22,678 nucleotides of DNA from a virus. Position 1 is the first letter of the stretch. The number at the start of each line of letters is the position of its first letter. The DNA lies in IMG/VR virus record IMGVR_UViG_3300045741_000305, positions 1 through 22,678 of that record. One strand, 5' to 3'. The position numbers and the translations under genes are program-made. This document shows positions 1 to 22,216 of this stretch, one piece after another. The notes beneath the pieces were generated by a model. It had not been told where the DNA came from and searched no databases. It was given only the letters and a program-made list of their open reading frames with translations.

Positions 1-2127
1 ACCGTGACCAAGGCGCGCGTGGAGAAAGCGCGGCGCAAGGTCGCGCTGATGAACTGGCAGCTTCGCACCCAGATCCCTGAGTTCCGTCCTGAGCTGGAGC
101 AGTGTCTCGTCCAGACGGGACTCGCCGGCTCGCAGTTCATGTACATGGTCTGGGACGAGCGCAAGCGCCGGCCCACTGCCACGTACTGGCCGGGCGAGAA
201 AGTGATCATGCCCTCAGGGGCGAGCAGCGCACTCACGGCTGAGCGGCTCACGCAGATCGAGACCATCAGCCAGCGCACCTACGAGCAGCGGGTTGAAACC
301 GGCTACTACATCGATCCGGCGGATTCTGCTCCCGCGAACCAGCCCGATCAGTCCTCAGCCGAGAAGGCCGCGGCCAAGGTGGAGGGTGTCAAGGAGCCCG
401 ACCAGAATCTCGATGGGCTGCGCGAGATCTGGCGCGTGTACACCGAGCTGGAGCTGGATGAGGATCCGGAAACCAAAGGCGAGCTGGCCCCCTACATCAT
501 CGAGATGACCAAGGAGGGGGGCGAAGTGAAGCGCGTGGTGCGCAACTGGGAGGAGAAGGACGAGCAGCGTGCGCAGATGGCGTGGCTGATCGAGTTCCCC
601 TTCCTTCCGTGGCGCGGTGCGCTCTCGGTGGGCTTGGGCCATATCATCGGTGGGCTCTCCGGGGCAGCGACGGGTGCATTGCGGGCACTGCTCGACAGTG
701 CGCACATCAACAACTTCCCGGCCGCACTCAAGCTCAAGGGCGCGAACGCCTCGGGCCAGAGCAAGCAGGTCGATGTGGGCACGCTCGTGGAGATCGAGGG
801 TGGCATCACGCAGATGGATCAGGACATCCGCAAGCTCGTGATGGCCTTCCCCTACAACCCGCCGAGCGCCGTGCTCTTCCAGCTGCTCGGATTCTTGGGC
901 GAGGAGGCCGAAGCGGTCGTCCAGACCACGCTCAAGAACCTGCAGGAAGCGGCTAGCTCAAACCTCCCGGTCGGCACCACGCTCGCGCTGATCGAGCAGG
1001 GCATGAAGGTGATGGCCGGCATTCACCTGCGGCTCTTGAATGCCATGACGCAGCTCATCGGCGTGCTGCATCGGATCGACCGGCTCTACATCACGGATGC
1101 CGAGATCAAGGACGACACGGGCGAAGTGCTCGCCAGTCGCGAGGACTTCAACGGCCCGATCGATGTGATCCCGGTCGCTGATCCGAACATCTTCTCGGAC
1201 GCGCAGCGCTTTGCGCAGATGCAGATCGTCGCCGATCGGGCCATGCAGCTGCCGCAGATCTACGATCAGCGCAAGGTCGAGGAGCTGATCCTTGAGCGCA
1301 CGCGCATCCCCGATGCCAAGAACCTGTTGGTGCCACTGGCCACCCCGCAGCCCGACAATGCCGTGAACGAGAACGCTGCGATGTCCATGGGCCGCCCGGT
1401 CGCTGCATTCCCTGAGCAGGATCATCTGGCGCACCTGCAGGTCCACTTCAACTATTTCGAGTCCCCGGTGCTGGGATCCTTGCCCATCATTGCCAAGAAG
1501 TTCGTCCCCTCGCTCCTCGATCACATGGTGCAACATCTGGCGCTGTGGTATGTGGAGGCGATCTATGAGGGCGGCAATCAGGCAACGCAGCAACTGGGGC
1601 ACGAGTTGAGTGATCTGATGCACCCGAAGGACACTGGGGCGAGCGCAGAGCTGGATCGGTTACTTGCAACCTTAAGTCCGCACGTCACGGCTGAGGCACA
1701 GAAGATATTCCAACGTGTCCCAGAGATTATCCAGCGTGCGCAGGCGTTGATGCAGCAGCTCTCGCCCCAGCCTCCACCGGACACTTCCATGGCTGCCGCG
1801 GCGCTCTCGGCGCAGACCGCTACTGCGATTGCCGACAAGAACGCGCAGACCAAGGTGGTCGACATCCAGTCTCGCACCCAGCTTGGGCATGCCAAGATCG
1901 CCTCGGACCAGCAGACCGCGGCCCAGAAGCTGCAGGCCGCCATGGCGCAGCAAGCGAAGAAGGACGAGGATCAGGCGCAGATGCAAGCGCGCGAGCAGGC
2001 GAGCCGCGAGGCCATGAACGTCGAGGACAACGAGACTGCGCTCACCATCAGCGCAGCTGACATCGCAGCGGGCAAGAAAAGCCCGCTCTCCACAGGCCAC
2101 GGACTTTCAGGAGAGAAAACGACATGA
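1..2127 (+). CDS. Portal protein, 5'-truncated
   Basis: This is the dodecameric head vertex protein through which DNA is packaged and ejected. The reading frame is open from base 1 with no stop, so the gene begins before the window; the GTG at base 4 is probably internal. At least 707 residues are present. Features typical of large podo-type portals are visible: an early segment reading MNWQLRTQIPEFRPELEQ, the GSQFMYMVWDERKRRPT strand, and a Gly/Ala-rich helical segment GLGHIIGGLSGAATGAL (about residues 209-225) ahead of INNFPAALKLKG. The last 130 residues are Ala/Gln-rich and probably coiled coil, like the helical barrel or crown of large portals. It is first in a co-directional head operon and overlaps the next ATG by 4 nt. 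The family call rests on remembered motif style and on position ahead of scaffold and capsid genes. Confidence 0.85.
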   Translation, partial: TVTKARVEKARRKVALMNWQLRTQIPEFRPELEQCLVQTGLAGSQFMYMVWDERKRRPTATYWPGEKVIMPSGASSALTAERLTQIETISQRTYEQRVETGYYIDPADSAPANQPDQSSAEKAAAKVEGVKEPDQNLDGLREIWRVYTELELDEDPETKGELAPYIIEMTKEGGEVKRVVRNWEEKDEQRAQMAWLIEFPFLPWRGALSVGLGHIIGGLSGAATGALRALLDSAHINNFPAALKLKGANASGQSKQVDVGTLVEIEGGITQMDQDIRKLVMAFPYNPPSAVLFQLLGFLGEEAEAVVQTTLKNLQEAASSNLPVGTTLALIEQGMKVMAGIHLRLLNAMTQLIGVLHRIDRLYITDAEIKDDTGEVLASREDFNGPIDVIPVADPNIFSDAQRFAQMQIVADRAMQLPQIYDQRKVEELILERTRIPDAKNLLVPLATPQPDNAVNENAAMSMGRPVAAFPEQDHLAHLQVHFNYFESPVLGSLPIIAKKFVPSLLDHMVQHLALWYVEAIYEGGNQATQQLGHELSDLMHPKDTGASAELDRLLATLSPHVTAEAQKIFQRVPEIIQRAQALMQQLSPQPPPDTSMAAAALSAQTATAIADKNAQTKVVDIQSRTQLGHAKIASDQQTAAQKLQAAMAQQAKKDEDQAQMQAREQASREAMNVEDNETALTISAADIAAGKKSPLSTGHGLSGEKTT

Positions 2128-2327
2128 GCAAGCACCACGGGCATTCGGATATGCACGCCCATCATCCCGCCAGCCACCATGGCGGCCATAAGACCTTGGA
2201 ACACATGCATCCGGCCCATGAGGCGGCCCACAGCGGCGGCCACAAGAGCATGGAACATCACGCTCGCGGCGGCTCGGCGCACGCCGATGGGTGTCGCTGT
2301 TCCAAGTGCAAGGGCGGCCGCGTTTAG
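2124..2327 (+). CDS. Histidine-rich small protein with CxCxxC tail
   Basis: This 67-residue protein contains 17 histidines (a quarter of the chain) and ends with C57-x-C59-x-x-C62 in a Lys/Gly/Arg-rich tail. An internal duplication is visible: GGHKTLEH (20-27) and GGHKSMEH (38-45), each followed by more His. The composition predicts binding of transition metals such as Zn, Ni or Co, but no known domain is recognised. The ATG overlaps the portal stop (ATGA), and AGGAGAG lies about 8 nt upstream, so the start and expression look real. Its place between portal and scaffold suggests a head-associated or assembly role; this is inference. There is no signal peptide or membrane segment. The HARGGSA segment resembles the RGG motifs of the next gene and of the gene at 15479. 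Confidence 0.75.
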   Translation: MSKHHGHSDMHAHHPASHHGGHKTLEHMHPAHEAAHSGGHKSMEHHARGGSAHADGCRCSKCKGGRV

Positions 2328-2348
2328 TTCAACAGGAGCACGATCGAC

Positions 2349-2624
2349 ATGGCTACAGAATCAGGTTTGAGACAGCACTACAAGCTCGCCATTGGGCAGG
2401 GCCTGCAGGGCGCGGCTAGCGGTCCGGGCAATCGCACCGGCAAGTACGCACGCGGCGGCAAGGTGAGCGTGCCCGGGAAGCTTGGCATCAAGGGTTACAC
2501 CAAGGGTGTGCCGACCTCTGCGGCCAAGAATGTGGGCACGGTGAAGACCACGACTGTTTCGCGCGGCAGCAAAGCGCGCGGATTTGACGTGCATGGGCCG
2601 GGCGGCAAGAATCGCAACGTCTGA
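2349..2624 (+). CDS. Small basic glycine-rich phage protein
   Basis: The product is 91 residues, strongly basic, rich in Gly, Lys, Arg, Thr and Val, and almost free of acidic residues. It contains YARGGKVSVPGK around residues 33-44 and ends GGKNRNV. No catalytic motif, membrane span or signal peptide is seen. AGGAG sits about 13 nt before the ATG, and the stop overlaps the next start (TGATG). Such a charge profile would suit binding to DNA or to an acidic capsid or scaffold surface, but that is inference. It shares the RGGK/RGGA signature with the gene at 15479. Function unknown. Confidence 0.65.
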   Translation: MATESGLRQHYKLAIGQGLQGAASGPGNRTGKYARGGKVSVPGKLGIKGYTKGVPTSAAKNVGTVKTTTVSRGSKARGFDVHGPGGKNRNV

Positions 2625-2812
2625 TGGATGAGCGCAAGTACCTCACGGCTCTCATCGATCGGCAGCGTGAGCTTGCGATCGGAGCGATCGAGCAGCCGAC
2701 GGGACTGGATGCGTATCATTACGGATATGCAGCCGGGGTGTTCCGTGGTATGAGCGCCGCGATAGAGTTGCTCAAGCAGCAGTTGCGCGACGAGAAGGAG
2801 AAGGATCTGTGA
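2624..2812 (+). CDS. Small hypothetical protein, 62 aa
   Basis: This is a short, mostly helical protein. The N-terminal half contains MDERKYLTALIDRQREL, the middle a Tyr/Gly stretch (YHYGYAAGVFRGM), and the end a charged helix LLKQQLRDEKEKDL. The start shares one base with the preceding stop (TGATG) and has no clear Shine-Dalgarno, so translation is probably coupled. The stop overlaps the GTG start of the co-chaperonin-like gene. I do not recognise a family. The Y-x-Y-G-x-x-x-G-x-F-R-G-M pattern looks like small phage proteins found near head genes, which is only an impression. Confidence 0.55.
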   Translation: MDERKYLTALIDRQRELAIGAIEQPTGLDAYHYGYAAGVFRGMSAAIELLKQQLRDEKEKDL

Positions 2813-3240
2813 GCGGAGTGTCCAAGCTGATCGTGCCCCCTGAGCGCAATGCGCTGGAGGAGGCCTTCCCGAAAGCCGATCCGGGCCTGATGCCCCTCGG
2901 TGCGCGGGTGCTGGTGCAGCTCAAGGCCCCCAAGCGCAAGAGCAAGGGCGGGATCGCTCTGGTGAGCGAGACGCAGGAGACCGAGCAGTGGAACACGCAG
3001 GTCGGGCGCGTTATCGCCCTTGGCCCGGTGGCTTTCCACAACCGCGACACGCTCGCCCCGTGGCCTGAGGGCCGCTGGTGCCAAGCGGGCGACTTCGTGC
3101 GCGTACCCAAGTACGGTGGCGATCGCTGGCAGGTGAGGCTGCCCGATTCGGAGGAGGTCGCATTGTTTTGCTTGTTCAAGGACCTTGACATCATCGGCCA
3201 GATCACGGGCGATCCGCTCGCGGTCATAGCCTTTATCTGA
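2809..3240 (+). CDS. GroES-like co-chaperonin (phage Cpn10)
   Basis: The 143-residue product resembles GroES/Cpn10, the lid that caps GroEL during folding. Visible signs are PLGARVLVQL (29-38), matching the first Cpn10 strand (RPLxDRVxV); a mobile-loop-like KSKGGIALVSETQ (44-56) whose I49-A50-L51 matches the I/V-x-L tripeptide that docks to GroEL; GRVIALGP (66-73), matching GEVLAVG; and a later GDFVRVPKYGG segment like GDxVxF. It is longer than GroES (about 97 residues), with a 28-residue N-terminal extension and an enlarged roof region, as in phage versions such as T4 gp31. It lies two genes after the histidine-rich gene and just before the scaffold, fitting a role in capsid protein folding with host GroEL. 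No groEL is in the window. The GTG start overlaps the upstream stop and is preceded by AAGGAG. Confidence 0.75.
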   Translation: MSGVSKLIVPPERNALEEAFPKADPGLMPLGARVLVQLKAPKRKSKGGIALVSETQETEQWNTQVGRVIALGPVAFHNRDTLAPWPEGRWCQAGDFVRVPKYGGDRWQVRLPDSEEVALFCLFKDLDIIGQITGDPLAVIAFI

Positions 3241-3253
3241 CAGGGGTAAGACC

Positions 3254-4258
3254 ATGGCGCTGAAGGACGAAGACGACAAGGACGAGAAGGCTGAGCAGCT
3301 GAGCATCCTCGAAGACCATCCCGAAGCGGGTGGTGAGGTGGTGGCGGTCGAGCCTGAGAAGGCGCGTGCCGAGCCGGTCGCTGACGAGCGCATGGCGCAG
3401 TCCGAAGAGGACGACGAGCCTGATCATCCCGGCGTCTCAGATGCTGAGCGGGAGGCGCGGCGTCTGGAAAGGCGGGCGCGCAAGGATCGTGAGAAGGCCG
3501 CGCGCGATCGCAACAAGCGCGAGCTGGAATTCCTCCGTAAGCGCAACGAAGATCTGGAGCGGCGCTTCTCCAGCTACGAGCAGCGGCAGGTGCGGAGCGA
3601 AGCGGCGATCATCGACGATCGGGTGGCGCAGATCGATGCTCACATCCAGCAGGCCGAAGAGGTCCATGCCCTCGCCATCAGCAAGGCGCAGGGTGCCGAT
3701 GCGGTTGAAGCGCAGCGCATCCGTGACCAGCTCATACAGCAGAAGAACCAGCTGCTCTACAGCAAGCAGCAGATCGCCGCGGCCGCGCAGGCTGGACTGC
3801 AGCAGCAGCAACAGCAACAGCAATCAGCCCCGGAGCCCGTCTCGCAGGACCTGCTGCGCCACGCCAGTGAGTGGCAGAGAAAGAATTCGTGGTATAAGCC
3901 TGACAAGAGCGATCAGGACTCGATGGTGACCGGTGCGATCGATGATCGCTTGGTGGCCGAAGGGTTCGATCCGGAAACTGAGGAATACTGGGATGAGCTT
4001 ACCAATCGGGTCAAGCAGGTACTCCCGCACCGCTTTCAGGGCAACGGGCAAGGCGAGCGGCGTGAAAGTCGCGGCCCGGCCATGGCCAATGGAGGCCGGA
4101 GCGAGCGTGCGTTGCGTCCCGGTGAGGTGTACGTGAGCCCGGATCGCAAACAGGCGATGATCGATGCGGGGGTGTGGGATGACCCGAAGCTCCGTACCCG
4201 CTACCTGAAACGCTATCAGCAATATGATCGGGAGCACGCCAATGACAGGCGTGCCTAG
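3254..4258 (+). CDS. Scaffold-like head assembly protein
   Basis: The 334-residue product is highly charged. It has an acidic N-terminus (DEDDKDEKAEQ), a long Arg/Lys/Glu-rich helical region around residues 60-180 predicted to form coiled coil, eight consecutive glutamines (183-190), and a more ordered C-terminal part with WQRKNSWYKPDKSD followed by LVAEGFDPETEEYWDEL. The W-x-x-x-N-x-W-(F/Y) and EGxxPxTxEY(W/Y) patterns are what I associate with putative scaffold proteins of phages with large portals. Position between portal and major capsid genes supports this. Scaffolds act transiently inside the procapsid. No protease motif is evident. GGGGTAAG precedes the ATG. Moderately confident in the role, not in a specific family. 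Confidence 0.6.
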   Translation: MALKDEDDKDEKAEQLSILEDHPEAGGEVVAVEPEKARAEPVADERMAQSEEDDEPDHPGVSDAEREARRLERRARKDREKAARDRNKRELEFLRKRNEDLERRFSSYEQRQVRSEAAIIDDRVAQIDAHIQQAEEVHALAISKAQGADAVEAQRIRDQLIQQKNQLLYSKQQIAAAAQAGLQQQQQQQQSAPEPVSQDLLRHASEWQRKNSWYKPDKSDQDSMVTGAIDDRLVAEGFDPETEEYWDELTNRVKQVLPHRFQGNGQGERRESRGPAMANGGRSERALRPGEVYVSPDRKQAMIDAGVWDDPKLRTRYLKRYQQYDREHANDRRA

Positions 4259-4280
4259 TCGCTGCAAGGAGTGACTGAAC

Positions 4281-4811
4281 ATGAGTATTCGTGACGAACG
4301 TCTGAGCCGCACGGGCGAGAACCGCAAGGAGCGCGAAAGCGCTGACAGGCCGGTGACGCAGGATCGTGAGCTTACCGATGGGCAGCGCTTGGATATGTTG
4401 CGCAGCCAGTTCTTCCAAGTTGCCTTACCAGACCTGCCCCCGATTGCGGGCTACCATGTGTGCTGGTTGACCACCACCAATCCTCGTGACCCGATCCACG
4501 GACGTATGAGACTCGGTTATGAGCCGATCAAGGCCTCAGACGTTCCCGGTTGGGAGCACGCCGGAGTGAAATCCGGTGAATGGGAAGGGTGCGTGGGCGT
4601 CAACGAGATGCTGGCCTTCAAACTTCCAATCCATCTGTACCAGATGTACATGCAGGAGGCGCACCACGATGCGCCCATGCGCGAGGAAGAGAAGCTCAGT
4701 GCCGCACTGGATGTGATCCGCGAACAGGCTGAGCGCAAAGGCGCTCGTGTGGAAGCAGGTGATGGGACCGAGGAGCTTGGAACCGCGAGGCCGGTTCCGA
4801 TGTTCGACTAA
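4281..4811 (+). CDS. Conserved-looking pre-capsid phage protein
   Basis: This 176-residue protein lies between scaffold and decoration/capsid genes. After a charged, probably disordered N-terminus comes a compact core: IAGYHVCWLTTTNPRDPI, then RMRLGYEPIKASDVPGW, EWEGCVGVNEMLAFKLP and a helix LYQMYMQEAHHDAP. I recall similar sequences (CWLsTtNpxDxi, GYxPvkaxevPG, NEMlLfKip) as unnamed proteins directly upstream of capsid genes in tailed phages, so it is likely conserved, but no biochemical role is known to me. The last 40 residues are helical and charged. AAGGAG lies about 10 nt before the ATG. It could be a minor capsid or assembly factor; that is inference from position. Confidence 0.6.
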   Translation: MSIRDERLSRTGENRKERESADRPVTQDRELTDGQRLDMLRSQFFQVALPDLPPIAGYHVCWLTTTNPRDPIHGRMRLGYEPIKASDVPGWEHAGVKSGEWEGCVGVNEMLAFKLPIHLYQMYMQEAHHDAPMREEEKLSAALDVIREQAERKGARVEAGDGTEELGTARPVPMFD

Positions 4812-4872
4812 AGGAAACAGGAATCGAGCGCTCGCATGCTGAACAACCATACCAACTTAGGAGTTCCAAAGC

Positions 4873-5463
4873 ATGAGCGCAACAGCAGCTCCGTTTGGGC
4901 TTCGGCCTGTTTATCACATGGGCGGCGGAATCATCCGGCCGGTCCAGCAGACGATCCCAAGCGGCTACGGTGCTAATATCTACCAGTACAGTCCGGTCGG
5001 CCTGACTGCCTCGGGCGTCGTCGCCCTTGCAGCCGCAGGCGGATCCGGAGCGACTGGTGCATGTGGTGTCTTCATGGGGTGCGAGTTCACCGACGTCTCG
5101 GGACGCCGGCAGTATCGCAACATGTGGCCCACGGGTACGGTGGCAGCCGATGCCATCGCGTACATCACGATGGATCCGCAGATCGCCTACGAGGTGCAGG
5201 CCGATGGTGTCGCCACCATTCCGGCCCTCACCGAGATCTCGGCCGGCTACAACTGGACGGCGAACGGGACCTCCAACGGAAATACCACGACGGGCATTTC
5301 CACGGTGGCGTTGTCGGGAACTACCATCTCGACTTCAGCGGCGAAAGACATGCAGGTGGTTGATATTGCCCGCTATGTCGATAACGCATTCGGGGATACC
5401 TATCCCATCGTTATCGTCAGGCTCGGCAACCATCAGTTCATCAGCTCGCCAGTCGCCTTCTAA
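4873..5463 (+). CDS. Probable capsid decoration protein
   Basis: The product has 196 residues, starts MSATAAPFGLRPVYH, and is rich in Gly, Ala, Thr and Ser with alternating beta-type segments. Segments such as GACGVFMGCEFTDVSGRRQYRNMWP and AYITMDPQIAYEVQADG resemble small proteins encoded immediately before the capsid gene in several tailed phages, which I take to be head decoration or stabilising proteins. No enzymatic motif or membrane segment is visible. TTAGGAG lies about 11 nt before the ATG, and the 61-nt leader contains a 10-bp palindrome, CGAGCGCTCG (4825-4834), of uncertain meaning. The strong ribosome binding site and position next to the capsid gene fit a high-copy virion component. 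Role is inferred from context. Confidence 0.6.
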   Translation: MSATAAPFGLRPVYHMGGGIIRPVQQTIPSGYGANIYQYSPVGLTASGVVALAAAGGSGATGACGVFMGCEFTDVSGRRQYRNMWPTGTVAADAIAYITMDPQIAYEVQADGVATIPALTEISAGYNWTANGTSNGNTTTGISTVALSGTTISTSAAKDMQVVDIARYVDNAFGDTYPIVIVRLGNHQFISSPVAF

Positions 5464-5479
5464 CCGGGAGTAACTACAA

Positions 5480-6400
5480 ATGGCAATGCCAATGCGCAGT
5501 ACAGACTTCCGGTCAGTCGTCGAACCGATCCTGAACGAAGTCTTTGATGGTGTTTATGACCAGCGTGCGGACGAATGGAAGACGGTCTTCCGGGAGTTCA
5601 ACGGTACGCCGCGTGCGTATCACGAGGAGCCCGTGCTGTACGGCTTCGGCGCTGCTCCGGAGTTGCCGGACGGCACAGCAGTCACCTACCAGAGTGGTGG
5701 CGTGCTGTTCATCTACCGCTACGTGTACAAGGTCTATGGCCTCGCGTTTGCGCTGACCAAGGTGCTGGTGGAGGACGGCGATCACATCAAGATCGGCACG
5801 ACCTACGCGAAGCATCTGGCACAGTCGCTGATCGAGACCAAGGAAACCCTGTGCGCCAACATCCTGAACCGTGCGTTCAACACCAACTACACCTTCGGCG
5901 ATGGCAAGGCGTTCAACGTCTCTGACCATCCCTTGGCTCCGGTGGGTGGCACGGCCAGCAACGTGCTCACGACGGCTGCGAATCTCTCGCAGACTTCGCT
6001 TGAGCAGATGCTGGTGCAGATCAGGAACGCGGTGGACAACAACGGCAAGCGCATTCGCCTGACCCCCAAGCAGATCGTGACGGGGCCGAGCAATGTGTTT
6101 CAGGCCGAAGTGCTCCTCAAGAGCGTGTTGCGGGCCGGTACGGCCAACAACGACATCAACCCGATCAAGTCGATGGGGTTGCTGTCTGAAGGGCAGGCGA
6201 ACCTCTCGCGTATCACGAGCAGCACCGCATGGTGGGTGCAGACGGATGCGCCGGAGGGTCTGAAGGTAGCGGTGCGCCGCGGGCTTGAGAAGAGCATGGA
6301 AGGTGACTTCGAAACCGACTCCATGCGCTACAAGAGCACCGAGCGTTATGCGCCGGGCCTGACCGACTGGCGTGCCACTTACGGCACACCGGGCGTCTGA
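5480..6400 (+). CDS. Major capsid protein (Mu gpT-like / HK97-type)
   Basis: The 306-residue product forms the head shell. It has the order of signatures I associate with Mu gpT-like head proteins: an N-terminal helix ending VYDQRADEWKTVF; the FREFNGTPRAYHEEPVLYGFGAAP segment; YRYVYKVYGLAFALTKVLVEDGD (the E-loop/spine side); AQSLIETKETLCANILNRAF; a GDGKAFNVSDHPL motif; the TPKQIVTGPSNVFQAEVLL core; and WWVQTDAPEGLKVAVRRG near the C-terminus. The ending ERYAPGLTDWRATYG is also typical. It starts 16 nt after the decoration gene with GGGAG upstream. A strong GC-rich hairpin follows the stop, consistent with a separately abundant transcript. Confidence 0.85.
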   Translation: MAMPMRSTDFRSVVEPILNEVFDGVYDQRADEWKTVFREFNGTPRAYHEEPVLYGFGAAPELPDGTAVTYQSGGVLFIYRYVYKVYGLAFALTKVLVEDGDHIKIGTTYAKHLAQSLIETKETLCANILNRAFNTNYTFGDGKAFNVSDHPLAPVGGTASNVLTTAANLSQTSLEQMLVQIRNAVDNNGKRIRLTPKQIVTGPSNVFQAEVLLKSVLRAGTANNDINPIKSMGLLSEGQANLSRITSSTAWWVQTDAPEGLKVAVRRGLEKSMEGDFETDSMRYKSTERYAPGLTDWRATYGTPGV

Positions 6401-8162: not shown

Positions 8163-11100
8163 ATGCCCGGTGATATCGGGTCTGGTGGCATCGTCGAGAT
8201 CCACATCCCGCCCGGTGGAACGGCCGGGCAGGTATTGGCCAAAATCGATGGCGTCGACTACAACGCCACATGGGGTAATGGGGGCGCTGGGGGCGGCATC
8301 GGCAGCATCAGCGTCAGCAACTCCAATGTTCAGGGCGCGCAGGTCTATTTCTCCAATAGCCCCACGATAAGCTTCGGGGCGAACGGCAACACCATCACGG
8401 CATCGGGAGCCGCAGGGGGTGGTGGAGCTGCGATCTCGGCCGCGGGCAGTTCCGTCAACAACGGAACGGTCGTATTCAGCAACGCCAACAACGTGTCGTT
8501 CAGCATGAACGGCTCGACGATCACAGCCACGGCGAGTTTCAACCAAAGCGCCCAGCCAGTGGCGTTCAGCGCCTCGGGCGGATCATCCGCCTTCAGCACG
8601 CTGTCCTTCAGCAACGCCAATGGCGTGAGCTTTTCTAACAATGCCGGGCAAGTGCTGATCACGCATGATCTGCAGTTCACGAACGCCACGAGCAACATTA
8701 CCAGCAATGCGCTGAACACCTCGGTCAGCCGCGTCGCGGCAATCAATGGCTCCTCTGGGACGATGAGCTTTGCTGTGGGCTCATCGCTTTCTGCTTCATC
8801 GAACGCCAGTACGATCACCTTCGGACTCGCATCGAACATCACCACGGCATTGCAGAGCGCGGGGGCGTATCTCACCACGGCCGCCCAGAGCAATCAGGTC
8901 GTCAATAGCCTCAATGGCTCCACGGGGCAGCTCAGCCTGAATGTCGGTTCCAGCCTGAGCGCATCAAGCAACGCCTCCAACATCACCTTTGGGCTCGCCT
9001 CCAATATTACGACTGCGCTCCAGAGTGCCGGTGCCTACCTGACCACTGCTGCACAGTCCTCCGTGTCCAATGTCTCGGCGATCTCGGCGGCGACCAATAA
9101 CACGGGTGGTGGAACGGCAACATTGTCGGGCGGCGTCAGTTTCAGCAATGCCAACAATCTGACCTTCTACACCAGCGCAGGGAACGCGATCGTCGCGAGC
9201 TTTTCCACCTCGCAGAGCGTTCAGACGCAAGCGAGCGGTAACCTTGCTCGCACGGGCGTCACGACAGGTGCTACGGCCGGCTCGCAACTGGCGGCGACCT
9301 TGGATACAGGTGGTCTGAGCCTTGGTGTCCCCGCATGGTTGACGGCCGCGGCGGGCGGCGGCGATGGCTACAATATCGTCTCGATACTTTCCAGTACCTC
9401 TGGGGGTGGGACGCTGGGAGCCACATTCTCTGCGTTGTCGGCCAGTATCGGACTGATGGCGGGCAGCAATATCACGCTCTCGCAGACCAGCAACACGATC
9501 AACATCATTGGACCTACTCCCGGCGCTGGCGTAGCGATTGCTGCGAGTAACTCGACGTTCACCAATGGTTCCGTTTGGCTGACGGTGACCGGTGGGAACA
9601 TGACGATTGATACGGCTGGAGCGCAGTCGATCAGATTCTCAGTAGCTTCTCAGAGCGTGCAGGCTCAGACGTTGACGGTCAGCGCGGCGAATACGAGTTA
9701 CACGGTACCTAGCCTTAGCTTCAGCAACGCCAACAACGTGAGCTTCAGTCTGAGCAACAATTCGCAGGTCTATGCCACGGCGACCTTCGCGCAGAGTGTT
9801 CAGACGCAAGCCTCTGGTGATATTGCTCGCAGTGGTTTCACCACGGGCGCTTCCGTCGGATCATTGCTGGTAGGAACACTCAACAGCGGCGGTTTGAGCC
9901 TGAGCGTACCTCCTTGGATCACGACAGCCGCGCAGTCCTCGGCATCGAACGTATCGCTGGCCGTGGCTGCAACCAACAACACAGGTGGTGGTACGGCTTC
10001 CTTGTCTGGGGCGGTCAGCTTCACGAATGCGAATGGCCTGACGTTCTACACAAGTGCTGGTAATGCGATTGCAGCCAGCTATACGGTCCCCGCTGTCCCG
10101 TCGAGCTATGTGTCCAACGTCAACGCTTCCTCTGGTGCCATCAGTCTGGCTGTTGGCTCGTCGCTGTCAGCCTCGTCCAATGCCAGCACCATTACCTTTG
10201 GTCTGGCCTCAAACATCACGACCGCTTTGCAAAGTGCTGGGGCGTATCTGACCACAGCAGCGCAGAGTTCGGCCTCTAACGTGTCGGCAATCTCTGCCGC
10301 GACGAACAATACTGGTGGTGGAACCGCCACGCTCTCGGGTGGCGTGAGCTTCAGCAACGCGAATAACCTCACGTTCTATACCAGCGCGGGCAATGCCATC
10401 GTAGCCAGCTTCTCGACCTCACAGAGCGTCCAGACTCAGGCTTCAGGAGATATTGCTCGCAGCGGCTTCACCACGAATGCGACAGCAGGCTCCGTGCTGG
10501 TGGGTACGCTGAACAGCGCGGGGCTGAATCTTGGTGTTCCCGCGTGGCTCACTGCTGCTGCAGGTGGTGGAGGGGCAGCGGTATCTATCCCGGCTGGTGG
10601 CAATAGCACTTCGGCGGGTGCGGGCTACAGCAATATCAGCAGCGGCACGGCCTTCATCATTGGTGGCCCGAATATCACCTTGAGCCAGAATGGGGCGTCG
10701 ATCTCCATCTCGGCAAACAATCCGGGTGCTGCGGCGGAGAACAACTGGGTCAATCTGCTGGGTGCCAATACCGCTGGCAACACCACGGTCAGTGGCTCGA
10801 CGCTTGGGTTCTCGGGCGTCAACATGACGCTCTCAGGAACCAACAACAGTCAGCTGGTGATGAGTGTTCCGGCCACATCGAGCCTTGTTGGCGTCAATGG
10901 CATCAGTGTCTCGACTGGCGGATCGACCATCAGCATCATCAACCAGCCCTTTACAGGAAGCTGGTGGCAACCCGAAGTTTACGGAGCTACTACCCCGCTC
11001 ACGATGGCCAATGGAACGGTCTATATCCGGCCATTTGAGCTGGATGGCTATTTTGATGTGATGAAGATCAACATGTTCCAGAGCTTCAACAGCTCTCGCA

Positions 11101-11846
11101 GCACGGCAAGCTTCAGTGCCAGCGTATCGAACGCCAGCAGCAGTAGCGGCTCTGGCTCTTGGGGACTTACGGGCACGGTCTTGATTTTCTCGCGCATCCA
11201 GACCAATCCCGCTGCAGCAAGCTTCAATAGCTTGATCAGCATGTACAGCAACACGTATACGCTGAGTGCCGGATACTCAGCATCGTGCAGCTGGAATGCG
11301 AATGTCAGTTCCGCCACCAACAGTATCACGACCGCGTACAGCATCGGATTTCCGGGCACGATCGGCTCTGACGGTGCGGTGACTTACGGCAACACGGGTA
11401 CGACGGGCACGACCAGTTTCAGCAGCACCAGCACCAACCAGAACAGCTTCAGCAGTAGCTACCAGCTTACGCAGGTCTACTCGCACTTCAGTGGTCTGCG
11501 TGCCGTATACATGCCAGCTGGTAATACGCTGGGGACCACAGCACTGCCGCCTGCAGAGTACTGGCTTGGAGTCATACAGAGCACGACATGGGGAAGTACC
11601 AACATGCCCACTCTTGGCAGCTGCGCGAGCATGTCGGATGCGGGCAGGCTACATTTTACGGCCAGCACAAACAACTTCCTTGAAATTGGCAATAGTGTCG
11701 CCTTTACCACTAGTGGCATACGCCCAATGTTTGGAAGCGCCAACGTAAGCAGCGGCACGACGGGTAATCTGGCGCTTAACACATTCAGCAGCCTCAGCAG
11801 CTACGCCAGCATGTGGTTTGCCTTGGATGGCAGGAAATACCCCTGA
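8163..11846 (+). CDS. Giant repetitive fibre-like protein
   Basis: The 1227-residue product is extremely rich in Ser, Asn, Ala, Thr and Gly. The N-terminus carries GGTAGQVLAKIDGVDYNATW (residues 19-38), a motif common at the start of phage tail-fibre and host-contact proteins. Residues about 45-920 are built of beta-type repeats containing FSNANNVSFS and FSNANNLTFY, an A block (VGSSLSASSNAS to TTAAQS), a B block (SNVSAISAATNN to QTQASG) and a C block (ARSGFTT to GVPAWLTAAA). From about 926 (INQPFTGSWW) there is a non-repetitive C-terminal domain, the usual place for receptor binding or trimer registration. There is no signal peptide. Such repeat proteins are known in tailed phages, but their function is not settled. 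The repeats are nearly identical in protein yet heavily different in DNA. GGGGAG precedes the ATG. Confidence 0.7.
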   Translation: MPGDIGSGGIVEIHIPPGGTAGQVLAKIDGVDYNATWGNGGAGGGIGSISVSNSNVQGAQVYFSNSPTISFGANGNTITASGAAGGGGAAISAAGSSVNNGTVVFSNANNVSFSMNGSTITATASFNQSAQPVAFSASGGSSAFSTLSFSNANGVSFSNNAGQVLITHDLQFTNATSNITSNALNTSVSRVAAINGSSGTMSFAVGSSLSASSNASTITFGLASNITTALQSAGAYLTTAAQSNQVVNSLNGSTGQLSLNVGSSLSASSNASNITFGLASNITTALQSAGAYLTTAAQSSVSNVSAISAATNNTGGGTATLSGGVSFSNANNLTFYTSAGNAIVASFSTSQSVQTQASGNLARTGVTTGATAGSQLAATLDTGGLSLGVPAWLTAAAGGGDGYNIVSILSSTSGGGTLGATFSALSASIGLMAGSNITLSQTSNTINIIGPTPGAGVAIAASNSTFTNGSVWLTVTGGNMTIDTAGAQSIRFSVASQSVQAQTLTVSAANTSYTVPSLSFSNANNVSFSLSNNSQVYATATFAQSVQTQASGDIARSGFTTGASVGSLLVGTLNSGGLSLSVPPWITTAAQSSASNVSLAVAATNNTGGGTASLSGAVSFTNANGLTFYTSAGNAIAASYTVPAVPSSYVSNVNASSGAISLAVGSSLSASSNASTITFGLASNITTALQSAGAYLTTAAQSSASNVSAISAATNNTGGGTATLSGGVSFSNANNLTFYTSAGNAIVASFSTSQSVQTQASGDIARSGFTTNATAGSVLVGTLNSAGLNLGVPAWLTAAAGGGGAAVSIPAGGNSTSAGAGYSNISSGTAFIIGGPNITLSQNGASISISANNPGAAAENNWVNLLGANTAGNTTVSGSTLGFSGVNMTLSGTNNSQLVMSVPATSSLVGVNGISVSTGGSTISIINQPFTGSWWQPEVYGATTPLTMANGTVYIRPFELDGYFDVMKINMFQSFNSSRSTASFSASVSNASSSSGSGSWGLTGTVLIFSRIQTNPAAASFNSLISMYSNTYTLSAGYSASCSWNANVSSATNSITTAYSIGFPGTIGSDGAVTYGNTGTTGTTSFSSTSTNQNSFSSSYQLTQVYSHFSGLRAVYMPAGNTLGTTALPPAEYWLGVIQSTTWGSTNMPTLGSCASMSDAGRLHFTASTNNFLEIGNSVAFTTSGIRPMFGSANVSSGTTGNLALNTFSSLSSYASMWFALDGRKYP
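8775..8891 (+). repeat. Fibre repeat A, copy 1 (aa 205-243)
   Basis: This is the first of three copies of a 39-residue block running from VGSSLSASSNAS to AYLTTAAQS. In its last 24 residues the protein is identical to copy 2, but 20 of the 24 codons differ synonymously, leaving about 69% DNA identity by hand count. Compared with copy 3, 16 of the 24 codons differ. Confidence 0.85.
8943..9239 (+). repeat. Fibre repeat A+B, copy 2 (aa 261-359)
   Basis: This 99-residue block joins repeat A (261-299) to repeat B (302-359). It recurs at residues 664-762 with only two amino-acid changes (N to T in NASNIT, V to A in the linker). In the 58-residue B part, 39 codons differ synonymously between the two copies and no amino acid changes, by hand count. 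Confidence 0.9.
9945..10079 (+). repeat. Fibre repeat B, diverged copy (aa 595-639)
   Basis: This 45-residue block aligns without gaps to the start of repeat B. It keeps SNVS, AATNNTGGGTA, TFYTSAGNAI and most other positions, with substitutions such as LAV for AIS, TNANG for SNANN and A for V. It shows that some copies have drifted in protein, whereas the two flanking B copies have not. Confidence 0.8.
10152..10448 (+). repeat. Fibre repeat A+B, copy 3 (aa 664-762)
   Basis: This is the partner of the 99-residue block at residues 261-359, about 1.2 kb downstream. It is followed, as is the earlier copy, by an ARxGxTTxATAGS to GVPAWLTAAAGGG segment, so the larger repeating module is about 150 residues. 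The DNA of the two copies is clearly different at third positions throughout. Confidence 0.9.
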
Positions 11847-11847
11847 G

Positions 11848-13080
11848 ATGAAAGTTGCACTCGTGCAAGTGGCCTGCCCAGCCTCTACGGGTAACGTAGA
11901 TTTTACTGACGCATCAGTGAGCAGTGATCTGGTGGGGGCATTCTTCTTCGGTGGTATTGCTGCAACGAATGACTCTACTGCCGCAAACGCCGCTTGGAGT
12001 TTTGGCGCGACTGACCTCACGGGTAATGTCTGTATAGCTTATGACGGGCGTGATAACGTAACGGGGGCTACCTCACAGGGACTAGCCTCGTCCACCAAAG
12101 CGGTGCAACGTAACAGCGGATCAGGCTCTGGTGTCGTTGCCGCTTACAGCAGCACCCTATCGAACGGGGTGCGCATGAATTACAGCGCGGTCACAAGCGG
12201 CGCGTTAACCTCGGCACTCCTGATCTCAGGATCCGACACGGCAATGAAAGTAGGCAGTGTCCAGTATGGCACCAGCGATGTCTTTCAAGTCGTGACACAT
12301 GGCCTCGGTGGGACACCGGACGTGCTGATTGTCTTTGTAGCGGGCAACTCAACGGGCACGGACGTGGGCGCGCAGGCGATATCGGCTGGATTCTGGGATC
12401 GGACAACGACCAATTGCTTCACGTCAGCACTTCGCTTCCAGAGCGGAGCCAATCCCACATCCGGCAACGCCTACATGGCTGATGTGGCTATCGGCAAATC
12501 ACTCGCCAATGGATCCGTGACAAACACGCATACCCTCGTATCAGTCGGAGCGACGACCTTTACATTGCAGCGTCCCAGTACGGGGACCAGTGATTTTGTT
12601 CCATGGATCGCGTTGCGTGGGACCGGTGCGCGCATGGTCACCAAAGCGGCGATGGTCACAACACCATTAGCGACAGGGAACAGTACACTGATCTCGGGAA
12701 TGAGTGGTGCACCGCAGGTCATCTTGACTTTGCCGACCAGATTACAGACCGCCAATGCTTTGCAGACCGACGACACCACCGGATCTTATGGGTTTGGAGT
12801 GGCGTGCAACCACGACGGCACGACGACGCAATATGCATCCTGCATTTCCACCATGCAGGACAACGTAGCCACATCCGTATCCAAGCACATGGCAAGCAAC
12901 ACTACTGGGTTGGGGGTGCTGGATAACACCGGAGCCTACACGGTCAAGTCTACGGTGAACTCTTGGGACAGCGGTGGCGCGACGCTCAATTACTCTGCGG
13001 TCAATGCCTCGGCGCTGGAAGTCATCTATCTGGCCTTCGGCCAAGGACTCAATCCGTCTACAGCATGGTTAAGAGCATGA
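11848..13080 (+). CDS. Beta-rich virion protein, paralogue 1
   Basis: The 410-residue product begins MKVALVQVACPASTGNVDFT. I chose the ATG at 11848, one base after the fibre stop, with AGGAAA about 10 nt upstream, over an in-frame TTG at 11818 inside the fibre gene. The sequence is Ser/Thr/Ala/Gly-rich and beta-like. It shares with the 429-residue protein at 19053 the landmarks FGATDLTG / MGATDFTR, HGLGGTPDVLIV / HNCGGTPDVIIV, VGATTF and SWDSGG-x-x-x-NY near the C-terminus, in the same order, so the two are paralogues. I recall such SWDSGG-ending proteins from phage structural regions without assigned function. The position after the fibre gene suggests a tail or fibre-associated component. 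Confidence 0.65.
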   Translation: MKVALVQVACPASTGNVDFTDASVSSDLVGAFFFGGIAATNDSTAANAAWSFGATDLTGNVCIAYDGRDNVTGATSQGLASSTKAVQRNSGSGSGVVAAYSSTLSNGVRMNYSAVTSGALTSALLISGSDTAMKVGSVQYGTSDVFQVVTHGLGGTPDVLIVFVAGNSTGTDVGAQAISAGFWDRTTTNCFTSALRFQSGANPTSGNAYMADVAIGKSLANGSVTNTHTLVSVGATTFTLQRPSTGTSDFVPWIALRGTGARMVTKAAMVTTPLATGNSTLISGMSGAPQVILTLPTRLQTANALQTDDTTGSYGFGVACNHDGTTTQYASCISTMQDNVATSVSKHMASNTTGLGVLDNTGAYTVKSTVNSWDSGGATLNYSAVNASALEVIYLAFGQGLNPSTAWLRA

Positions 13081-13817
13081 GCGGCAAACCTGAAATCGTG
13101 TCGAGCGGCGTGGGCTATCACAACAGCGATCTGGCGAAGTCCACGCTGCGTGTGATTGAAGGTGGCTCGTGGAAGAAGCAACGGGTGGTCGTAATCATCC
13201 CGTCTGCTGACCTGATCCCCGCCAAGGTCGCCATGTCGCATTGGTCGCTGATGTTCCCGCCCAATCAGGCGGTGCATCGGATGCTTGCGCTGGGTCAGGA
13301 AGTCGGTGAGGCATACAGCCATGCCATTACGGAAATTCTTGCGCACCCGGACTTATCCCAGTGGGAATACCTCCTCACGGTCGAGGCTGACAACATGCCT
13401 CCGGCTGACGGCCTCATTAAGCTCATACAGAGAATGGATCAGCACCCTGAATTCGCCTGCATCGGCGGACTCTACTGGTGCAAAGGGCCGGGCGGCTGCG
13501 CGCATATCTGGGGGGACATCAAGGACAAACAGATGAACTTCAGGCCACAGCCTCCCGTCGCAGGCGAGCTGGTCGAGTGCTGGGGCACCTCGATGGGCTT
13601 CAATCTGTGGCGCTTGAGCATGTTTAAAGATGAGCGCCTGCGCAGGCCTTGGTTCAAGACGCTCAATGGCAGCGAGGGTACCGGAATTGGAACCCAAGAC
13701 CTCTACGCTTGGAACGACTTCAAGAAGCACGGCTACCGCTGCGCGGTGGATTGCGGCGTGCTGGTCGGCCACCATGATTACGAGGGCAAATTTGGAGTCA
13801 AGGATTTTACATGGTGA
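13077..13817 (+). CDS. Glycosyltransferase-like protein (GT-A)
   Basis: This is a probable sugar transferase using a nucleotide-sugar donor. From the ATG at 13077, which overlaps the upstream stop (ATGA), the product is 246 residues; an in-frame ATG at 13065 would add four. After a short leader, VVVIIPSADLIP forms the first Rossmann-like strand (37-48), followed by helices. YLLTVEADNMPP (with E103-A104-D105) matches the acidic DxD-like metal and nucleotide site of GT-A enzymes. GGLYWCKGPGG, an ECWGTSMGFNLWR acceptor-side segment and a late GVLVGHHDYEG with paired His, a common third metal ligand position, complete the fold. No membrane anchor is seen. It overlaps the sugar dehydratase gene by 7 nt, so the two are probably translated together. 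Donor and acceptor are unknown. Confidence 0.7.
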   Translation: MSGKPEIVSSGVGYHNSDLAKSTLRVIEGGSWKKQRVVVIIPSADLIPAKVAMSHWSLMFPPNQAVHRMLALGQEVGEAYSHAITEILAHPDLSQWEYLLTVEADNMPPADGLIKLIQRMDQHPEFACIGGLYWCKGPGGCAHIWGDIKDKQMNFRPQPPVAGELVECWGTSMGFNLWRLSMFKDERLRRPWFKTLNGSEGTGIGTQDLYAWNDFKKHGYRCAVDCGVLVGHHDYEGKFGVKDFTW

Positions 13818-14809
13818 AGGTACTCATCACGGGCGCGGCAGGCTTCATAGGGCATCACCTAGTAGATGCCCTGCTGCGTCGCACCGACTGGCACATCACG
13901 ATCATTGATCGGCTCGACTGCTCTGGCAATCTCAACCGGCTGGCCGAGATTGGCGTGGCCAAGAATTCCAGAGTGAGGTTTGTCTACCATGACCTGCGTG
14001 CACAAGCAAACGATCAACTTGCCAGCCAGATCGGCGCACACGACTACATACTCCACCTTGCCGCTGCCACCCATGTCGATAGAAGTATCAGCGACCCATT
14101 CTCTTTCGTCCTCGATAATGTGGTGGCAACCTGCAACATTCTCGATTTCGCACGCTTCACGGGTTGCGAGAAATTCCTCAACTTCTCGACCGACGAAGTG
14201 TTCGGTCCAGCCCCTGTAGGTGTCGCTTACGCAGAGGATGACCGCTACAACGCGGGTAACCCGTATGCCGCGACGAAGGCGGGGGCAGTGCAGCTGGGCC
14301 TATCGTTTCACAACACCTACCAGCTGCCGGTGATCACCACGCATACCATGAACGTGATTGGCGCGCGCCAGCATCCTGAAAAGATGGTGCCCATGACCAT
14401 TGCCAAGGTGCAGACGGGGCAGGAGGTTGTCATCCATGCGGATCCCACTTGTACTCGGCCGGGCAGTCGTTATTACATTGACGCAGAAAACGTCGCCGAC
14501 GCTGTACTCTTCCTCCTCAGTCACGGTCGGCCCGGCGAAAAGTACAACATCGTCGGGGAACGCGAGATGGACAATCTCGAATTGGCACAGCGAATTGCAC
14601 AAGCCGTGGGGAAACCTCTCCGTCACCGTCTCGTCGATTTCCACTCCCAGAGGCCCGGTCACGATCTGCGTTACGCACTGTCCGGTGCCAAGATGGCAGC
14701 GTTGGGTTGGGAGCCTCCGTGCAACATTGAGTCGAGCATCAATAAGATCGTGGCTTGGACGTTATCGAACCCCCAATGGCTGATGCAAGGAATGAGGAAA
14801 GTCGCATGA
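13811..14809 (+). CDS. NAD-dependent sugar-nucleotide dehydratase/epimerase
   Basis: The 332-residue product is an extended short-chain dehydrogenase of the RmlB/GalE type. The dinucleotide-binding GAAGFIG (8-14) is complete. HLAAATHVDRS follows, then STDEVFG with T127-D128-E129, the catalytic triad arrangement of dTDP-glucose 4,6-dehydratase, and Y152-x-x-x-K156 in NPYAATKAG. Later NVIGARQHPEKMVP matches the NxYGxxQxPEKxxP segment of that family. These favour a 4,6-dehydratase over an epimerase, acting on a dTDP-, GDP- or UDP-hexose; the nucleotide specificity cannot be read here. Length is near that of RmlB (about 350), with a shortened sugar-binding end. It sits between a glycosyltransferase and a methyltransferase and likely supplies a modified sugar donor. 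Confidence 0.85.
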   Translation: MVKVLITGAAGFIGHHLVDALLRRTDWHITIIDRLDCSGNLNRLAEIGVAKNSRVRFVYHDLRAQANDQLASQIGAHDYILHLAAATHVDRSISDPFSFVLDNVVATCNILDFARFTGCEKFLNFSTDEVFGPAPVGVAYAEDDRYNAGNPYAATKAGAVQLGLSFHNTYQLPVITTHTMNVIGARQHPEKMVPMTIAKVQTGQEVVIHADPTCTRPGSRYYIDAENVADAVLFLLSHGRPGEKYNIVGEREMDNLELAQRIAQAVGKPLRHRLVDFHSQRPGHDLRYALSGAKMAALGWEPPCNIESSINKIVAWTLSNPQWLMQGMRKVA

Positions 14810-15384
14810 GTGCTGTCATTGACTCGACCGCTGAAGAGATCAAGCCCGCCGATCCCATTAAGCTGGATCTGGGCTGCGGGAAAGGCAAGCAGGCGGGATT
14901 CATCGGTGTCGATATCCTGAAGTTCGACGGCGTGGATGTCGTGTGCAATCTGGGCAAGGATCAGTGGCCGTGGCCTGACAACAGCGTGAGCGAGATCTTC
15001 TGCAGCCACTTTCTGGAACATCTGGAAGCCATGGAGCGCGTGCACTTCTGGAACGAGCTGTACCGGGTACTCAAGCCCAAGTGTGGCGGCAAGATCATCA
15101 CGCCTTACTGGGCCAGCTCCCGTGCGTACGGTGATCCCAGCCACAAGTGGCCGCCGGTCGGTGAGTGGGCGTACTACTACATCAGCAAGGAGTGGCGGAA
15201 GATCAACGCGCCACATACAGACTCAGAGTTCGTGTCGTGGGGCTTCAACTGTGACTTCGATGCCGTGGGTGGCTACGGGATGCACCAGCAGCTGCTCACT
15301 CGGACGCCTGAGTACCAGAACTTCGCGATCCAGTGGTACAAGGAAGGCGCACAGGATCTGCACATGACCGTCACCAAGAAGTAG
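14806..15384 (+). CDS. SAM-dependent methyltransferase (class I)
   Basis: The 192-residue product carries motif I LDLGCGKGK (20-28), the acidic strand end GVDI (D36) expected to bind the SAM ribose, and FCSHFLEHL followed by FWNELYRVLKPKCGGKI, the post-motif region of class I methyltransferases of the Methyltransf_11 kind. The C-terminal half has many aromatics (WAYYYISKEWRK), probably the acceptor site. The start at 14806 overlaps the upstream stop (ATGA); an in-frame start at 14755 lies inside the dehydratase gene and is less likely. As third member of an overlapping cassette it probably methylates a sugar or sugar nucleotide, though protein or small-molecule methylation is possible. Confidence 0.75.
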   Translation: MSAVIDSTAEEIKPADPIKLDLGCGKGKQAGFIGVDILKFDGVDVVCNLGKDQWPWPDNSVSEIFCSHFLEHLEAMERVHFWNELYRVLKPKCGGKIITPYWASSRAYGDPSHKWPPVGEWAYYYISKEWRKINAPHTDSEFVSWGFNCDFDAVGGYGMHQQLLTRTPEYQNFAIQWYKEGAQDLHMTVTKK

Positions 15385-19052: not shown

Positions 19053-20342
19053 GTGAAAGCGGCAGTACTCCAGCAGGCATCTCCAACCAGCAACACCACG
19101 CAGGACTGGACCGATGCGACCGCGGTCAGCAGCGATGCCAAGGGGTTCCTGAGCTTCGCCTCCTACGCCACGGCCAACAACACCGCTACAGCCAGCGGTC
19201 ACCTGACGATGGGCGCGACCGATTTCACGCGCGACAATGCATTCAGCTACTGCCAGATCGCGGATGGCGGCGTCATCCTGACGAGCAATCAGACCGATTA
19301 CGATACCAATGCGGGCTCGATCATTATAGCGAGCTACTCCCCGGGGCCGACCGTCAAAGCCTCCTACAACAGCACGCTTGCGACTGGTGTCCGGGTCTCA
19401 TATTCGAACTCCTCTGCGACCCAGTATCTGATCAACGGTGTCTTGGTAGCTGGGTCCGATATCGCCTTTGCGACAGCGACAGCAACTCTGACAAACCCTG
19501 CGACCACGGTGAGCGTTACACACAATTGCGGCGGCACGCCTGATGTGATCATCGTGCAAATGGTCATCGGCCTTACCGTAGTACCGGGTGGTGTCAGACC
19601 AGTTTCCATCACCTCGGTATGGGAGCGCGGCGGAGGCACGCAGGCCACGATATCCACTGGATACGATTATCACTCTGACCCGACCAAAGTGGCCGGATAC
19701 ATCACGACCTCCAATTTCGGACGCTGGGCCATACCGCAGACAGGGGCCCTGAATAACACGATGACCATCAGCAATGTCGGCGCGACGACATTCGATCTGA
19801 CAACTAATTTCAGCCCGGGCAATGTCTGGCAGTTCATTGCGCATTCAATGCGTGGCACAACCAATCCCATCGTCGCCAAATGTGGGACGTTCACGACCAA
19901 GACCAGCACGGGCACCAGCGCAGACATCACGGGCATGGCCTCACCTCCGATACTGCTGTTCACCATGCCCTCACGCATGACGGCGTTGACCACTGGCGTG
20001 TTCGATGATTCGGCGGGCTCATGGGGCTTGGGCTGGTCAGCCAATAATGGCGGCACGACCCAGCAGTTCGCCTCTGCCGCGGTACTGCAGCAAGGCGTGG
20101 CGACCAACCAAGTCGCCAAATGCCGCACCAGCAACAACCGCGCCATGCTGGTTCTGGACAACAGCGCCAACATCCTCACCGACGCGAGCATCAGCAGCTG
20201 GGATTCGGGTGGTGTCACGTTCAACTACAACACCTCTTCGGGCACCGCCTATGAGGTGATGTATCTGGCCATCGCAGCACCCTCGGGCGGCGGCGGCGGC
20301 GGCTTGCGGAATGATCCCATGATGATGCTGGGAGTCGCGTGA
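19053..20342 (+). CDS. Beta-rich virion protein, paralogue 2
   Basis: The 429-residue product starts at GTG (GAGGA upstream) with MKAAVLQQASPTSNTTQDWT. It is paralogous to the protein at 11848. Shared ordered landmarks are MKxAxxQ at the N-terminus, GATDxT, ATGVRVSYS / SNGVRMNYS, the H-x-x-GGTPDV-x-IV segment, VGATTFxL, and ISSWDSGG-x-x-x-NYN near the end. It adds a Gly-rich tail (SGGGGGG) and a final MMMLGVA. It looks like an all-beta virion protein, possibly a second tip or side fibre following the glycosidase-like gene. The function is unknown. The stop overlaps a 45-codon ORF by one base. Confidence 0.65.
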   Translation: MKAAVLQQASPTSNTTQDWTDATAVSSDAKGFLSFASYATANNTATASGHLTMGATDFTRDNAFSYCQIADGGVILTSNQTDYDTNAGSIIIASYSPGPTVKASYNSTLATGVRVSYSNSSATQYLINGVLVAGSDIAFATATATLTNPATTVSVTHNCGGTPDVIIVQMVIGLTVVPGGVRPVSITSVWERGGGTQATISTGYDYHSDPTKVAGYITTSNFGRWAIPQTGALNNTMTISNVGATTFDLTTNFSPGNVWQFIAHSMRGTTNPIVAKCGTFTTKTSTGTSADITGMASPPILLFTMPSRMTALTTGVFDDSAGSWGLGWSANNGGTTQQFASAAVLQQGVATNQVAKCRTSNNRAMLVLDNSANILTDASISSWDSGGVTFNYNTSSGTAYEVMYLAIAAPSGGGGGGLRNDPMMMLGVA

Positions 20343-21865: not shown

Positions 21866-22216
21866 ATGGAAACCCTTGGTCAACATCAGCGTCGCTTCCT
21901 GCCTCTGGTAGCCAAGCTCATTGAGTACGCCTACGCGCAGGGGTATGAACTGACCTGTGGGGAGATGTATCGCTCACCGGAGCAGGCCGCACTCAACGCG
22001 CAGCATGGGACGGGGATCGCGAACAGCCTGCACATCCTGCGGCTCGCGGTGGATCTGAACGTATTCAAGGACGGCGTATACATGACCGATGAGGCATCGT
22101 ATAAGCCACTGGGCGATTACTGGAAAACGCTTGACCCCGCGTGTGCTTGGGGCGGCGATTTTGTAACGCTCAAGGATTTCGACCATTTCTCACTCAGTTG
22201 GGGAGGGATAAGGTAA
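21866..22216 (+). CDS. Endolysin, M15-type L-Ala-D-Glu peptidase
   Basis: The 116-residue product is a peptidoglycan peptidase of the VanY/M15 type. It has the substrate-loop arginine segment EMYRSPEQAALNAQ (33-46), SLHILRLAVDLN with H56 and D63 as the first two zinc ligands, and DFDHFSLSWGG with H107 as the third; the preceding acidic residues could supply the catalytic base. WGGDF precedes the last His as in phage L-alanyl-D-glutamate peptidases. It is close to the minimal length of the catalytic domain, without a cell-wall-binding domain and without a signal peptide, so it would need a holin. The next gene is a holin candidate, overlapping by one base. Confidence 0.85.
   Translation: METLGQHQRRFLPLVAKLIEYAYAQGYELTCGEMYRSPEQAALNAQHGTGIANSLHILRLAVDLNVFKDGVYMTDEASYKPLGDYWKTLDPACAWGGDFVTLKDFDHFSLSWGGIR

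Follow-up and report, generated by a model that had tools for sequence, protein, structure and literature searches.

Protein-identical, DNA-scrambled repeats in a phage fibre-like gene are probably old modules under strong purifying selection

The repeat copies in a fibre-like gene of an IMG/VR virus record (22,678 bases, analysed over its full length and called the window below) encode nearly the same protein in very different codons. We hold, with good confidence, that they are old duplicated and shuffled modules of a fibre shaft under strong purifying selection, and that no selection for DNA dissimilarity is required. An earlier note on this DNA had proposed strong constraint on the protein, possibly together with selection for dissimilar DNA that counters recombination between the copies. 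The first half of that interpretation is borne out by our analyses, while the second is not.

The product of this gene is composed of 30% serine plus threonine, 13% alanine, 12% glycine and 9% asparagine, and contains three recurring modules, A, B and C (Table 1). No profile in Pfam, PHROGs or NCBIfam, those of known fibre families included, matched it, nor did any annotated phage protein in a search whose low-complexity filter may mask some relatives (the phage ctKR88, described below, has one). A scan of bacterial genomes for the module gave no confirmed relative, and none of the solved structures matched the repeat. AlphaFold2 reached a pLDDT of 37.5 with the single sequence and 66.3 with 43 sequences (pTM 0.32), models too poor to support a fold name, and a viral fold search returned nothing below E 0.001. 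From its composition, its repeats and its position after a block of head genes, the protein is most likely a phage fibre shaft.

Table 1. Features of the fibre-like gene and of the sugar-enzyme block downstream, in window positions
Feature	Position	Strand	Residues	Remarks
Repeat-rich fibre-like protein	8163..11846	+	1227 in all	
Module A, copy 1 (A1)	8775..8891	+	205-243	
Module A, copy 2 (A2)	8943..9059	+	261-299	
Module B, copy 1 (B1)	9066..9239	+	302-359	
Module C copy	9792..9887	+	544-575	pairs with residues 754-785
Module B, copy 2	9921..10070	+	587-636	more diverged; 7-8 amino-acid differences from the other B copies
Module A, copy 3 (A3)	10152..10268	+	664-702	protein identical to A1
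Module B, copy 3 (B3)	10275..10448	+	705-762	protein identical to B1
Module C copy	10422..10517	+	754-785	pairs with residues 544-575
Glycosyltransferase-like protein (GT-A/GT2-like)	13065..13817	+		weak profile matches; conserved directly downstream of the family's fibres
NDP-sugar epimerase/dehydratase	13811..14809	+		
SAM-dependent methyltransferase	14755..15384	+		

The head block (4-6400) resembles that of the Caulobacter phages RW, GB2A, RLK and KcrB, in which the portal, GroES-like and major capsid genes and those downstream are ordered as in the window. Amino-acid identity to phage RW is 80% for the capsid, 58% for the GroES-like protein and 41% for the portal, and neither the repeat fibre nor the sugar-enzyme block showed a homologue in the compared part of RW. 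Elsewhere in the window, the proteins encoded at 11818-13080 and 19053-20342 are paralogues of about 420 residues (34% identical, without a family match) and are possibly further adhesins. The protein at 20483-21607 is 35% related to a gene of phage RW and matches an F5/8 type C (discoidin-like) domain over residues 123-218, and a small M15-type peptidase, likely an endolysin, lies at 21866-22216.

Recounting the copies reproduced the figures of the earlier note. Residues 261-359 and 664-762 form a 99-residue repeat with two amino-acid differences (N273/T and V301/A), in which 68 of the 97 shared codons differ synonymously; there are 83 nucleotide differences and the longest identical run of DNA is 11 nt. 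Its B part (58 residues, B1 and B3) has 39 synonymous codon differences and no amino-acid difference. Pairwise, the three A copies differ by 0-1 amino acids and 27-29 synonymous codons: A1 and A3 differ in 27 of 39 codons, A2 differs from both by one amino acid, and 20 of the last 24 codons differ between A1 and A2. The alignment can be carried on to 140 residues (261-400 and 664-803), over which there are 14 amino-acid differences. Of these, 12 lie within the final 41 residues, and the 99-mer is thus the frozen portion of a longer, less frozen repeat.

The window copies are saturated without excess and differ to the extent that random codon choice produces. When codons were drawn at random from the gene's own usage with the protein held fixed, 80.0 ± 7.2 nucleotide differences were expected at the identical residues of the 99-mer, and 80 were observed. 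Codon differences in the 99-mer numbered 68 against 60.6 simulated (P 0.06), and its longest identical run compares with 14.5 nt expected (not significant); over all six repeat pairs, there were 212 codon differences against 203.7 ± 8.8 expected (P=0.19). In 31% of the simulations, some stretch of 24 codons had 20 or more differences, as between A1 and A2. A codon model of the 99-mer gave dS of at least 4.2 and omega of 0.006 (range 0.001-0.016), in line with the strong constraint that had been proposed. Codon usage in the repeats did not differ from that of the rest of the gene except for serine (P 0.03, uncorrected for 11 tests). No residual DNA similarity remains between the window copies; they are as similar as random synonymous codon choice would leave them, and with this result the anti-recombination idea loses its footing.

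Scanning IMG/VR with the modules retrieved about 105 loci (given L numbers below) with 89 fibre-like ORFs, or about 85 discounting overlapping contigs, as some ORFs come from the same contig or population and overlap. In 58 of the 89, internal repeats span at least 30 residues at an identity of 80% or more. The modules behave as a shuffled deck: their strings vary in number and order from gene to gene, so the stable repeat number that the earlier note had raised is not seen. Codon-difference ratios across the family run from 0.14 to about 1.19, which indicates a continuum of copy ages. Copies in separate phages are frozen and saturated to the same degree as the window copies; L084 and L086 share 119 residues with five differences at a codon-difference ratio of 1.05, and L089 and L086 share 57 identical residues at 0.94. 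At the young end, a ratio below 0.3 is seen in just 4 of 110 non-redundant within-gene pairs. Exact DNA repeats of at least 100 nt occur in six ORFs (two from the same population), including 170 nt in L087 and the longest, 556 nt, in L057. In L073 and L011, the fibre ORF exceeds 3,100 codons and carries module A in over a dozen copies, with one repeat of 417 residues at 98% protein identity in which 163 codons are silently changed. We found no published report of this fibre family in the open-access literature, and the module family is apparently widespread and undescribed.

At a matched level of protein identity, DNA similarity is higher between copies within one gene than between copies from separate phages. 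For module A at an amino-acid identity of at least 90%, 104 within-gene pairs give a codon-difference ratio of 0.63 and 396 between-phage pairs one of 0.93, the reverse of what selection for dissimilarity predicts. The suggestion that copies avoid shared runs of identical bases fared no better: within genes of the family such runs exceed the expected length (mean z +1.3; 87 of at least 20 nt against 62.8 expected), and the window shows no significant departure. In L073 and L026, similarity is greater between neighbouring copies than between distant ones.

The amount of amino-acid change for a given silent time is similar within genes, at 0.076 (0.053-0.104), and between phages, at 0.099 (0.089-0.109), and the dN/dS check on repeat pairs that the earlier note had called for gave NG86 medians of 0.054 within genes and 0.066 between phages, the between-phage pairs not being strict orthologues. 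A measure of this type for the other genes of the same loci was 0.17 overall, with a median of 0.12. The modules are thus under somewhat tighter constraint than the typical gene of these phages, although their rates are biased downwards to some extent because matched pieces were picked for similarity. A whole-fibre rate of 0.31 amino-acid changes per silent unit was set aside as an artefact of gapped alignments of shuffled modules. With a family dN/dS of about 0.05-0.07, the premise that an old duplication under ordinary constraint must change the protein was too strict. The A/B core of the window lies far below even this family average.

Serine provides a further clock, since no single silent mutation joins its two codon sets, TCN and AGY (PMC6872785). 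Codon change in the family follows a stepwise order in which serine lags: in the youngest within-gene bin there were 0 switches between the sets against 21.7 expected, and the switch ratio was 0.14 at intermediate bins and 0.57 in saturated pairs. A1 and A3 show 0 of 9 serine-set switches and B1 and B3 1 of 12, although their remaining codons are saturated, which points to descent from one another through stepwise point mutation. Re-choice of codons, or an independent coding origin, was rejected for both pairs on this retention of the serine sets. A2 differs from A1 in codon set at 5 of the 9 shared serines. At residue 264, the fourth module position, it uses AGY like many other phages, whereas A1 and A3 use TCN, as do L073, L076 and L097; this hints, though on small numbers, that A2 may have a history separate from that of A1 and A3. 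At residue 269, A2 has serine as AGC, the matching position in A1 and A3 is TCN, and most other phages have threonine there; a parallel change within one gene is possible.

We propose that copies are generated by duplication and by recombination, both inside a fibre gene and between the fibre genes of different phages, and that they then drift silently, the window copies representing the old end of the age range. Strong purifying selection would hold the protein of the A/B core while single-step synonymous changes reach saturation. The source of the constraint would be structural, possibly with modification of serine and threonine as well. One observation against this explanation is that the 99-mer has 2 amino-acid changes where about 20 would be expected (at 0.08 per codon per unit time, if t is 2.5), so that strong heterogeneity among sites is needed; the 140-residue repeat, with its 14 differences, is closer to the expectation from the family rate. 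The serine sets of A2 and the poor predicted structures also count against it, as does the rarity of young DNA-alike duplicates, which could mean that identical repeats are unstable.

That rarity would be accounted for by passive purging, in which duplicates that are still alike are soon deleted by recombination and drifted or imported copies persist; such a process would be added on top of constraint and would not replace it. The shuffling of modules between phages is consistent with it. However, short-read metagenome assembly breaks at DNA-alike repeats and yields the same depletion, making purging inseparable from artefact in this set, and members with long exact repeats, such as L057 and L087, do exist. 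We consider a contribution from purging possible but rather unlikely.

Somewhat less probable again is that the window copies were acquired separately from different phages bearing the same frozen module and were not duplicated in place. Different phages do carry copies that encode the same protein in saturated codons, and the serine codons of A2, at residue 264 and in their difference from A1, would suit such an import. Against it, the three window copies share protein states not found together elsewhere in the set (SASSNAS), and the serine sets kept at 9 of 9 (A1/A3) and 11 of 12 positions (B1/B3) point to descent from one copy.

Selection for DNA dissimilarity, pushing synonymous divergence past drift as a protection against recombination or slippage deletion, we regard as very improbable. 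A few observations lean its way: the longest identical run in the window's repeat pairs is 14 nt against 16.5 simulated, A1 and A2 differ in 29 codons against 24 expected (P 0.07), and young within-gene duplicates are few in the family. Yet taken over all pairs there is no significant excess over random codon choice; same-gene copies are the closer ones in DNA, adjacent copies in L073 and L026 are closer than distant ones, identical runs exceed their expected length, other members keep exact repeats of 100-556 nt, and the amino-acid-per-silent rate is similar within and between. Least credible of all is that the scrambling serves translation or mRNA structure, by keeping RNA hairpins from recurring or tRNAs from running short. 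Only the scrambling itself speaks for it; repeat codon usage (serine apart) does not differ from that of the rest of the gene, and the extent of difference is that of random choice.

A possible reason for the constraint on the old shaft modules lies downstream of the fibre gene. Among 53 related loci with sufficient sequence beyond the fibre, 48 have a homologue of the glycosyltransferase-like protein after it (median gap 138 nt) and 47 have a methyltransferase downstream, several of these loci overlapping (one contig or population) so that the counts are not all independent. Reciprocally, a search with the glycosyltransferase-like protein found fibre modules upstream in 16 of 23 loci having upstream sequence. 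Only the window and a small number of relatives have the NDP-sugar epimerase between the two genes. In most of these phages the glycosyltransferase-like protein is 50-74% identical to that of the window, despite capsid proteins that are, where seen, only 29-40% identical, and the block therefore seems to travel with the fibre. This protein looks, if weakly, like a putative family 2 glycosyltransferase: 10 of 29 family members match PF00535 (best E 0.011, weak), the match to SpsA (1h7l) is similarly weak (E 0.019), and E107, D109, N110 and D115 are invariant. Serine and threonine are replaced less often than average (9.2% and 8.4% versus 11.3%), and the Ser-Thr exchange is the commonest. Together with the linked enzymes, this pattern suggests that the fibre modules are perhaps modified. 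It is conceivable, and we offer it tentatively, that the Ser/Thr-rich modules are the substrate of the co-inherited glycosyltransferase and methyltransferase, frozen both within a fibre and among unrelated phages since every copy must show the same modification sites, and that they belong to a widespread undescribed decorated-fibre cassette; we found no published report of such a cassette in the open-access literature.

Among annotated genomes, the complete podovirus Podoviridae sp. ctKR88 (MW202524, Manatee Spring) has a fibre-like gene with tandem repeats of period 44 residues, in which a 90-residue match has 15 amino-acid differences and 47 silent codon differences. The overall arrangement matches that of the window, with methyltransferase, glycosyltransferase-like and methyltransferase genes following the fibre-like gene in ctKR88; this phage differs from the window in having other modules, and its annotation reads hypothetical, 'has synthase' and methyltransferase.

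Polyubiquitin appears to be the closest parallel to the fibre repeats. There, purifying selection with silent divergence has been debated against homogenisation (Sharp and Li, 1987; Nei et al., 2000; reviewed in PMC10457151), and the pattern has been explained by purifying selection with slow turnover (PMC10457151). Both systems combine near-identical protein (97 of 99 residues here) with many synonymous differences, and in both the copies of one gene are closer in DNA than copies between species (here, between phages). Unlike the polyubiquitin repeats, the phage fibre modules are interspersed with others in an order that changes between phages, and silent sites in the window have reached full saturation. 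Persi et al. (2016; PMC5120217) reported that repeats within proteins diverge faster horizontally than vertically, typically by an order of magnitude. We likewise treated repeats as paralogues, and adjacent copies tend to be closer in both studies; in the fibres, however, horizontal and vertical dN/dS are about equal and both low, a loose comparison, as vertical here means between phages.

This fibre family, a large natural set of dozens of genes and hundreds of copy pairs, seems to depart from the reported rule that repeats inside a protein evolve far faster than orthologous ones. Time and constraint would be enough to produce protein-identical, DNA-scrambled repeats, and the linked sugar-enzyme cassette supplies a possible explanation of the constraint that can be tested.
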